Assembly (NCBI GenBank): GCA_028716975.1
Contig: JAQUOU010000001.1
Location: forward strand, 186,001 to 250,000
Reading direction: 5' to 3'
Length of the DNA: 64,000 nucleotides
DNA from: Methylobacter sp.
Lineage (GTDB): Bacteria; Pseudomonadota; Gammaproteobacteria; Methylococcales; Methylomonadaceae
Shown: positions 24,392-26,102 of the stretch, piece by piece
Layout of the letters: the number at the start of each line of letters is the position of its first letter
Position numbering within the stretch: position 1 is the first letter of the stretch
Notes under the pieces: generated by a model
Told to the model about the DNA's origin: nothing
The model's input: the letters and a program-made list of their open reading frames with translations, nothing else
Database searches by the model: none
Translations under genes and position numbers: made by a program

Positions 24392-24709
24392 TCAAGAAGT
24401 TGAATCGATATGAGCCGTAGCCGGCCAGCTAACGATATGCTTAAAATCAAGCCTGGATTTGAGCGACTGAATGGCTTTTTCCACTTTGAGTGGCTCGTCG
24501 TAAAACTCAATAACCAGCGGTAATTCCAGGGATAAACTCAGCAAGGATGAGGTATGTATCTCGCGGTCTTCACCAAACCCGGCGATACCGCGGACAATAG
24601 TGACGCCAAAGATTTTTTCTTCATCGCGCAGAATATCTAAAGCCTGATTGACCTGGTCATGCCCTTCCATTGTATATATTCTTGCAATAGTGACTTCTTT
24701 TGCACTCAT
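24392..24709 (-). CDS. DUF190 family protein, partner of CrcB
   Basis: This 105-residue protein matches DUF190, a small ferredoxin-like fold often encoded beside crcB. Typical block: GVTIVRGIAGFGEDREIHTSSLLSLS cut by LPLVIEFYD. Its start overlaps the crcB stop by four bases (ATGA), a strong sign of a shared transcript and linked function. A role as cytoplasmic regulator or sensor of the channel is inference. Confidence 0.85.
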   Translation of the reverse strand: MSAKEVTIARIYTMEGHDQVNQALDILRDEEKIFGVTIVRGIAGFGEDREIHTSSLLSLSLELPLVIEFYDEPLKVEKAIQSLKSRLDFKHIVSWPATAHIDSTS

Positions 24710-25413
24710 ATCTGCTTACCTGCCAATAACCCTATCCACATCACTAAAAGACATATCAAGCCATTACCAAAAAAAATACTCAGCATTAAATTCAGATTGG
24801 ACTCAAACGAATAGCCATGCTCTATTAAAAAAAGAACTAAGTATAAACCGGTCAATGCTAAATAAGTGCTTACCATAATCACCATAATCGCGGCGCGATA
24901 TTCCAGGGACAGCGCAACTTTCTGCAATAAAATAGTCGCAATAATGCCTATTAAAAAAGCGATTATAGTATTTACGATGATCAGTGCATAAGGAAACACG
25001 CCTCCTGACCATTGAATTAAACCCCCTGAATAGAAGAATAAAGTTCTGCCGCAAAGTAATCCAATCCAGACAGCAAAGATACAGCCGATGACACTTAGGA
25101 GTACATTTAGAGAAGCTTTGGTTAAGCTGCCTTGCTCTATAAGATATACGGTTTCCAGCGAAAAAGTGGAGAATGTGGTAAAGGCGCCGATAAAACCGAC
25201 CAATATTGCAGCCCGGTATTCCAAGGTCATGGCAATGCGTTGAAGAATAAGGGCCTCTGTCAGCAAACCGATTAAAAACGAACCGACCATATTAACGGCT
25301 AAAGTTCCATACGGAAATCCCCGGCCTAGCCACTGATGTATACCGGATGAAACTAAAAACCGCACTACCGCACCAAATGATCCGCCCAGTGCAATAGCAA
25401 GCAATTGATTCAT
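24706..25413 (-). CDS. crcB: fused double CrcB/Fluc fluoride channel with a shortened, degenerate second half
   Basis: Two CrcB units lie in one 235-residue frame; single CrcB proteins have about 125. Unit 1 (1-123) has four membrane helices, the conserved VNMVGSF (Asn41) and the pore motif GAFTTFSTFS (76-85). Unit 2 (about 138-235) repeats GGVFPYALIIVN (Asn148), LSLEYRAAI and MWIGLLAG. It lacks a separate first helix, and its phenylalanine-box region reads STYLALTGLYL, so TTFSTF is lost. That gives seven helices, not eight. After four helices, a second unit that starts at its own helix 2 points the opposite way. This could make a built-in antiparallel pseudo-dimer like the natural Fluc dimer. 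It is coupled to the DUF190 gene. Confidence 0.88.
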   Translation of the reverse strand: MNQLLAIALGGSFGAVVRFLVSSGIHQWLGRGFPYGTLAVNMVGSFLIGLLTEALILQRIAMTLEYRAAILVGFIGAFTTFSTFSLETVYLIEQGSLTKASLNVLLSVIGCIFAVWIGLLCGRTLFFYSGGLIQWSGGVFPYALIIVNTIIAFLIGIIATILLQKVALSLEYRAAIMVIMVSTYLALTGLYLVLFLIEHGYSFESNLNLMLSIFFGNGLICLLVMWIGLLAGKQI

Positions 25414-25556: not shown

Positions 25557-26102
25557 TCAGAACTTGATAAAGTGTTCCCGGTAATAGCGCAACTCTTCAA
25601 TGGACTCAACAATATCGTCCAATGCCTGATGCTTGGATTCTTTATTAAAGCCCTTTTTTAGCTCCGGAGCCCATCTGGCTGCCAGTTCCTTAAGCGTTGA
25701 AACATCAATATTACGATAATGAAAATACGCTTCCAGCTTTGGCATGTAGCGATAAAGAAAACGCCGGTCCTGACCAATGCTGTTACCGCAGATAGGTGAC
25801 GTTTTTTCCGGGACCCATTGTTTTAAAAACTCGATAGTCAACCGCTCTGCTTCAGCATCATCAATCGTAGAAGCTTTAACGCGGTCAATCAATCCGGATT
25901 GACCATGATGCTTCTGATTCCATTCATCCATCGCAGCCAATGCCGAATCAGGCTGGCGCACTGCCAGCACCGGACCTTGAGCAAGCATTTTAAGGTCCTT
26001 ATCGGTAACAATCGTAGCAATTTCGAGGATTAAATCCTTATCCGGATCAAGGCCTGTCATTTCCAGGTCTATCCAGATAAGGTGCTGAGATTCCTGTGCC
26101 AT
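25557..26102 (-). CDS. orn: oligoribonuclease
   Basis: This DEDDh 3'-5' exonuclease of 181 residues finishes degradation of 2-5-base RNAs and of pGpG from c-di-GMP turnover. Exo I is [13 protein letters not shown] (Asp12, Glu14), exo II is [14 protein letters not shown] and exo III is [22 protein letters not shown]. Its divergence from the M48-rsgA pair echoes the orn/rsgA neighbourhood of enteric bacteria. Confidence 0.97.

Follow-up and report, generated by a model that had tools for sequence, protein, structure and literature searches.

The stretch of DNA analysed here (the window; 64,000 nucleotides of a Methylobacter contig) contains on its minus strand a crcB/Fluc gene whose product has 235 amino acids from ATG to stop (ORF translation, 25413..24706). 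The translation, the NCBIfam matches and the alignment all place two Fluc units in this one open reading frame (Table 1). A preliminary description of the gene had been right in its details, although it left the strand unstated. In a genome-wide profile search the fused gene was the sole PF02537 match of the whole genome, and its named homologues at 73-84% identity were mostly from Methylobacter species, which identifies the host of the window as a methanotroph of this kinship. Its stop codon overlaps by four bases (ATGA) the start of a DUF190 gene, which is followed by a gene that, from its translation, we take to encode seryl-tRNA synthetase. An exonuclease-like gene (25557..26102), presumably encoding an oligoribonuclease as judged by reading its translation, precedes crcB. 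We refer to families (f1 to f8), a genus (g29), genomes (G) and loci (L) by codes. A DUF190-like gene also adjoins crcB in L070, L094, L187 and L188; L070 belongs to an unfused Thiotrichaceae relative, and this neighbour is absent in L087. Our literature search found no paper considering crcB and DUF190 together. No fluoride riboswitch was detected upstream of crcB, in the 64-kb window or among the 13 genomes searched.

The genome of the window also encodes two CLC proteins. The only CLC whose selectivity region could be read (L243) shows SGIP there, a motif typical of chloride-type CLCs. A CLC-family gene of this genome (L242, G000:C3:4972-5982) carries one in-frame TAG.

Table 1. Coordinates of the crcB locus in the window and of the paired fused genes of two further loci (numbered within each locus)
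Feature	Coordinates	Strand	Basis
Fused crcB/Fluc gene, stop codon included	24706..25413	minus	ORF, translation, Pfam CRCB, NCBIfam crcB
Unit 1, residues 1-125, complete four-helix Fluc subunit	25039..25413	minus	AlphaFold2 helices, Foldseek
N41, pore Asn of unit 1 (N43 of Fluc-Bpe)	25291..25293	minus	invariant in 178/178 fused sequences
TTFSTF, residues 79-84 of unit 1	25162..25179	minus	T79, T80, F81, S82 and F84 invariant in 178/178
Junction and short linker, residues 126-141	24991..25038	minus	alignment, AlphaFold2
Unit 2, residues 126-235, Fluc half-domain without TM1	24709..25038	minus	AlphaFold2 helices, dN/dS
N148, pore-Asn position of unit 2	24970..24972	minus	N in 156/178
LALTGL, residues 185-190, TTFSTF position in unit 2	24844..24861	minus	F82' = L187, F85' = L190
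DUF190 (COG1993) gene, 105 amino acids	24392..24709	minus	Pfam DUF190, E 7e-16
Fused paralog pair of L187	689-1393, 1684-2391	+, -	
Fused paralog pair of L188	546-1259, 1559-2287	+, -	

Architecture of the fused protein

AlphaFold2, run on a 99-row alignment of relatives, modelled the fused protein with a mean pLDDT of 86.7 and a pTM of 0.79. The model has exactly seven membrane helices (4+3) and no linker helix, and the chain is packed confidently as one body. The monomer prediction that the preliminary description had proposed as a check thus gave seven helices, not eight, and unit 1 of the model matched Fluc-Ec2 and Fluc-Bpe in Foldseek (TM-score 0.80-0.92 by target length). Against the PDB, Foldseek matched one unit only, to single Fluc chains, and against a viral library nothing was found for the fused protein. 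The helices of unit 1 span residues 2-29, 35-56, 61-78 plus 81-93, and 97-127, TM3 being broken at TTFSTF as in Fluc.

Pfam CRCB covers residues 5-119 (E 8e-28), NCBIfam PRK14195 matches unit 1 above its cut-off, and this unit is 30-35% identical to the solved Flucs. The Fluc pore set (the pore Asn, the Phe pair of TTFSTF, T39 and E88) is present in it; TTFSTF contains the pore phenylalanines F81 and F84 and the vestibule serine S82. Across 178 distinct fused proteins R18, T37, N41, T79, T80, F81, S82 and F84 are invariant, and E87, which corresponds to E88 of Fluc, is E or D. By four-helix similarity and pore residues, unit 1 is predicted to be a genuine member of the Fluc/CrcB family.

The tail of TM1 is where unit 2 begins to align with unit 1, position by position (FFYSGGLIQWSGGVFPY vs FLVSSGIHQWLGRGFPY), and since this alignment starts at the last turns of TM1, that helix is missing. 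Residues 126-141 are homologous to the TM1 tail and loop 1, which leaves no room for a linker helix; in the AlphaFold2 model TM4 ends at residue 127 and is followed by a linker of about 14 residues with only two short strands and no helix. The remaining helices span 142-165, 170-198 and 203-234, and TM3 of this unit is continuous, unlike the broken TM3 of unit 1. Pfam CRCB did not match unit 2 by itself, and several NCBIfam CrcB models matched two stretches of the fused protein. With its first helix missing and no linker helix in between, unit 2 must by parity be inverted relative to unit 1. These results agree with the preliminary description, which had read 4+3 helices in one frame, a second unit devoid of its first helix, an inverted orientation and no extra linker helix. 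It had further noted that unit 2 had lost TTFSTF and kept its Asn, and indeed LALTGL occupies residues 185-190 and N148 aligns with the pore Asn.

Among the Fluc pore residues only the Asn is mostly kept in unit 2; both Phe, the Thr and the Glu are lost. Thr at T39' and Glu at E88' were found in 0% of the sequences (the latter position holds hydrophobic or small residues only) and Phe at F85' in 1%, residue 190 being Leu in 165 of 178 sequences. At F82' (residue 187) Phe persists in 10%: the counts are L134, F17, G9, V8 and A8, and the 17 sequences with F187 include the sister species as well as several lineages that branch early. In family f4, residue 187 is mostly G or A and N148 is missing (lost in 18/18 f4 sequences tabulated), with unit 1 unchanged. 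Other Fluc residues were well retained in unit 2, namely G77' (G182, 97%), S83' (S188, 93%), N43' (N148, 88%), T81' (T186, 81%) and a Cys at S112' (C221, 79%), and N217 and Y191 were gained.

Distribution and origin of the fusion

The 4+3 form is shared by 178 distinct sequences, and a unit 2 query matched in 285 of the 311 genomes of the order. The proteins read from families f1 to f6 were mostly fused frames of 225-245 amino acids; in families f7 and f8 the gene is single and encodes 123-124 amino acids. The class was covered by 369 genomes and the phylum by 398; the matches inspected there from outside the order were single units, and the fusion was absent from the unfused Flucs sampled. 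Long CrcB frames elsewhere in the class were rejected as fusions, being single genes of 124-131 amino acids, as was a match of 235 positions with one stop in G890, also a single gene. The multiple matches in G224, G244, G111 and G161 came from copies that were partial, broken or split, and none of them formed an adjacent pair. In G111, a crcB reading (G111:C73:49684-50010; L250, L169) is interrupted by two TGA stops, and an uninterrupted copy (L246) lies on another contig, C93.

In a tree of unit 1, families f7 and f8 root outside one fused group (support 95/86), which places a single origin of the 4+3 fusion in the ancestor of most of the order. Two f4 loci have secondarily reduced proteins with an intact unit 1: L094 (1490-1891; 133 amino acids) has wholly lost unit 2, and L087 (1489-1971; 160 amino acids) has only the last helix of it left. 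Both are nested in a fused clade inside f4 (support 100/99), although an AU test against a tree placing them outside the all-fused clade gave p 0.10, so that their nesting is likely, not proven. Since L094 and L087 group together (support 91/77), the loss of unit 2 may represent one event or two.

Selective constraint on the two units

Over 42 disjoint pairs unit 1 had a median dN/dS of 0.036 and unit 2 one of 0.084. The values of unit 2 were about 0.08-0.11 in f1 pairs and mostly 0.06-0.31 in f4 and f6; unit 2 is thus under purifying selection and is not decaying. This constraint, together with its occurrence in 178 distinct sequences, implies that the 4+3 form is not a chance product, and the fused architecture is confirmed as real.

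The constraint on unit 1 was evaluated at 39 positions conserved in at least 90% of unfused relatives. At 38 of them at least 80% of the fused unit 1s carry the same residue, and only residue 75 was clearly relaxed. Mean retention was 95% in unit 1 vs 39% at the homologous positions of unit 2. By this comparison of sequences, the constraint acting on unfused Flucs is almost fully preserved in unit 1.

Charge bias of adjacent fused paralogs

In adjacent homologues an opposite K/R bias is generally accepted as marking an antiparallel heterodimer, and a bias near zero as marking dual topology (PMC3755343, PMC3962082); the listed values are -2 to +1 for dual-topology proteins and 6-7 in size for heterodimer pairs (PMC3962082). 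Orienting the protein of the window by the positive-inside rule was attempted and rejected, as its bias is near zero (f1 mean -1.15), and no orientation can therefore be claimed for it. In four genomes of genus g29 (family f6), which include G307 and G308, two fused seven-helix paralogs lie adjacent and convergent, with a DUF190-like gene between them in both loci fully read (L187 and L188). One copy has biases of +2, +3, +2 and +5 and the other of -4, -8, -4 and -5. The 170 other fused proteins range from -3 to +2, close to the listed dual-topology range, and single-copy species of the same genus from 0 to -2. Random shifts of the loop boundaries by up to two residues left this picture unchanged. 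Within the f6 pairs the loops of unit 2 contribute the same sign, and those of unit 1 the same sign or zero; this agreement between the halves supports the predicted seven-helix topology. The four pairs stem from one duplication and therefore count as one strong observation, not four. Bias is not itself topology, but these adjacent paralogs point to pairing between chains.

Discussion

The fused gene probably goes back to a tandem crcB duplicate: a deletion of the stop codon, the intervening gap and TM1 of copy 2 would have brought the duplicate into frame with the C-terminus of copy 1. Which chains pair in the resulting protein is harder to decide. We favour, with about equal parts of confidence and doubt, a seven-helix subunit whose unit 1 pairs with a second chain, unit 2 being a conserved half-domain of putative role; the fused protein by itself probably does not form a whole channel. 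Unit 1 would be the working subunit, set antiparallel to unit 1 of the second chain to give the usual double-barrelled channel, each pore using F81 from one chain and F84 from the other. Single-copy species would achieve this by dual topology of the entire seven-helix chain, and in one genus the gene was duplicated, the adjacent fused paralogs taking opposite biases as would be expected of an antiparallel heterodimer. Unit 2, inverted beside unit 1 and with its pore chemistry lost, would be kept as a packing half-domain, either stabilising the subunit or assisting its insertion and assembly.

The pore residues bear directly on this question. In Fluc, every pore combines F82 from one subunit with F85 from its partner (PMC4969038, PMC5417652). 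With one Phe per subunit in each pore, the loss of both from unit 2 affects both pores that a single chain could build: pore I would have F84 and L187, and pore II F81 and L190. The preliminary description had suggested that one of the two pores may be dead; that wording understated the damage. In Fluc-Ec2, F80L or F83L alone left no detectable flux (PMC5636608). In eukaryotic FEX, also a single chain, the dead pore has lost its Phe, and every lost Phe belongs to that one pore (PMC5417652).

The main alternative, less probable in our judgement but a serious contender, is a single-barrelled channel made by one chain, in which unit 2 packs antiparallel to unit 1 across a Fluc interface, essentially what the preliminary description had proposed in suggesting that the chain may encode its own antiparallel dimer. 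Pore I, formed by TM1, TM2, TM4 and F84 of unit 1 and by position 187 and S188 of unit 2, would conduct through a remodelled Phe box, perhaps with the help of Y191, one helical turn from the lost Phe, and pore II would be dead. An odd helix number without a linker helix is just what such a protein needs, and the Fluc-specific residues of unit 2 are hard to explain without a Fluc-like interface. The residues of pore I are better kept (S188, and F or L at 187) than T39', E88' and F85' of pore II, and the lineages that retain F187 would keep a complete Phe box in pore I. The AlphaFold2 model, a prediction, packs the chain as one body, and in yeast FEX the loss of a live-pore Phe (F330A) had only a 1.4-fold effect (PMC5417652). 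The case for pairing between chains is further tempered in that the opposite-bias paralogs represent one duplication in one genus, and by the p value of the AU test, which may allow L094 and L087 to fall outside the fused group. It is rather unlikely, on our estimate, that an even-helix dual-topology protein became in this way a single-chain antiparallel pseudo-dimer by helix loss, conducting fluoride through one pore whose Phe box was rebuilt from Leu187 and Tyr191, with no need for Phe at both positions.

Several observations nevertheless argue for pairing between chains. F81 and S82, which within one chain would serve mainly the degenerate pore II, should drift if that pore were dead, yet they are invariant. 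Unit 2 lacks both Phe, the Thr of T39' and TM1, and by the chemistry of Fluc-Ec2 L187 would be lethal to pore I (PMC5636608); f4 mostly has G or A at this position, without N148, next to an unchanged unit 1. In two f4 genomes unit 2 is gone, either wholly or apart from one of its three helices, and unit 1 is intact. A self-contained channel needs neither opposite nor near-zero bias, and would leave the fused pairs of four f6 genomes unexplained. Finally, the fused protein is the only CrcB of its genome. The unrelaxed unit 1, the losses in unit 2 and the opposite-bias paralogs thus lead us to disfavour a dimer encoded within one chain.

That unit 2 has retained Fluc-specific residues suggests some continued Fluc-like packing, in its own chain or with unit 2 of the partner. 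Both pairings might therefore occur, unit 2 acting as an intramolecular placeholder during insertion that is displaced when chains meet, or the two unit 2s pairing in the finished dimer. This would reconcile the retention of G182, T186, S188, N148 and C221 with the constraint on unit 1 and the opposite-bias pairs; however, the short linker limits the geometry, and coevolution is too shallow to reveal either interface, since Gaussian DCA on about 60-90 effective sequences gave no usable contacts between the units, gaps and phylogeny dominating the signal. We regard such a combination of pairings as quite improbable. These residues and the 17 sequences with F187 are the reason why neither this combination nor the single-chain channel is given a lower probability. 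A unit 2 without any role, left over from a failed duplication and decaying, is very hard to believe in: its lost pore residues, a dN/dS about twice that of unit 1 and its loss, whole or in large part, in two f4 genomes would fit, but its dN/dS remains low in f1, f4 and f6, frame and length are kept across the order, and several of its residues are near-invariant.

Even-helix dual-topology proteins have been called evolutionarily frustrated, as duplication and fusion give a parallel pair (PMC3962082), and Fluc fusion in eukaryotes was regarded as requiring an additional, captured helix (PMC3755343). In the bacterial order studied here, Fluc was fused by helix loss instead of helix capture. A literature search that included only a minority of subscription journals gave no paper dealing with CrcB in Methylococcales or with a Fluc fusion by helix loss, and the architecture is new relative to the searchable literature. 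Because unfused outgroups survive alongside single-copy species with the fusion, a fused pair of opposite bias and lineages that later lost the second half, natural proteins allow a test of the steps by which dual topology gave way to an inverted repeat, and of whether the Phe box is needed.

With the bacterial Fluc/CrcB channels (Fluc-Bpe, 5nkq and 5a40; Fluc-Ec2, 5a43) unit 1 shares the fold, the Arg, T39, N43, TTFSTF, E88 and the polar-track positions of TM4. Those channels consist of single four-helix subunits of 120-130 residues, whereas here a three-helix second unit devoid of TM1 is fused on. Eukaryotic FEX (4+1+4) likewise has two Fluc units per chain, one of them with degenerate pore residues, but FEX inverts its second unit by an extra linker helix and keeps 4+4, whereas here a helix was lost and there is no inversion linker. 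Its lost Phe belong to one pore, in contrast to the loss here of both Phe of one unit, which affects both intrachain pores; one complete pore, as in FEX, would be lacking within the chain of the window and most relatives, and could be present in the F187 sequences. Fraternal Fluc pairs of the La1/La2 type and other opposite-bias pairs of small membrane proteins are adjacent homologues, like those of the f6 genomes, in which, however, each partner is a seven-helix fusion and the genes are convergent. The engineered Laf-TM and Ec2 concatemers also join two Fluc units covalently, and Laf-TM inverts its second unit by an engineered glycophorin helix, a result that the natural fusion would have reached by losing a helix.
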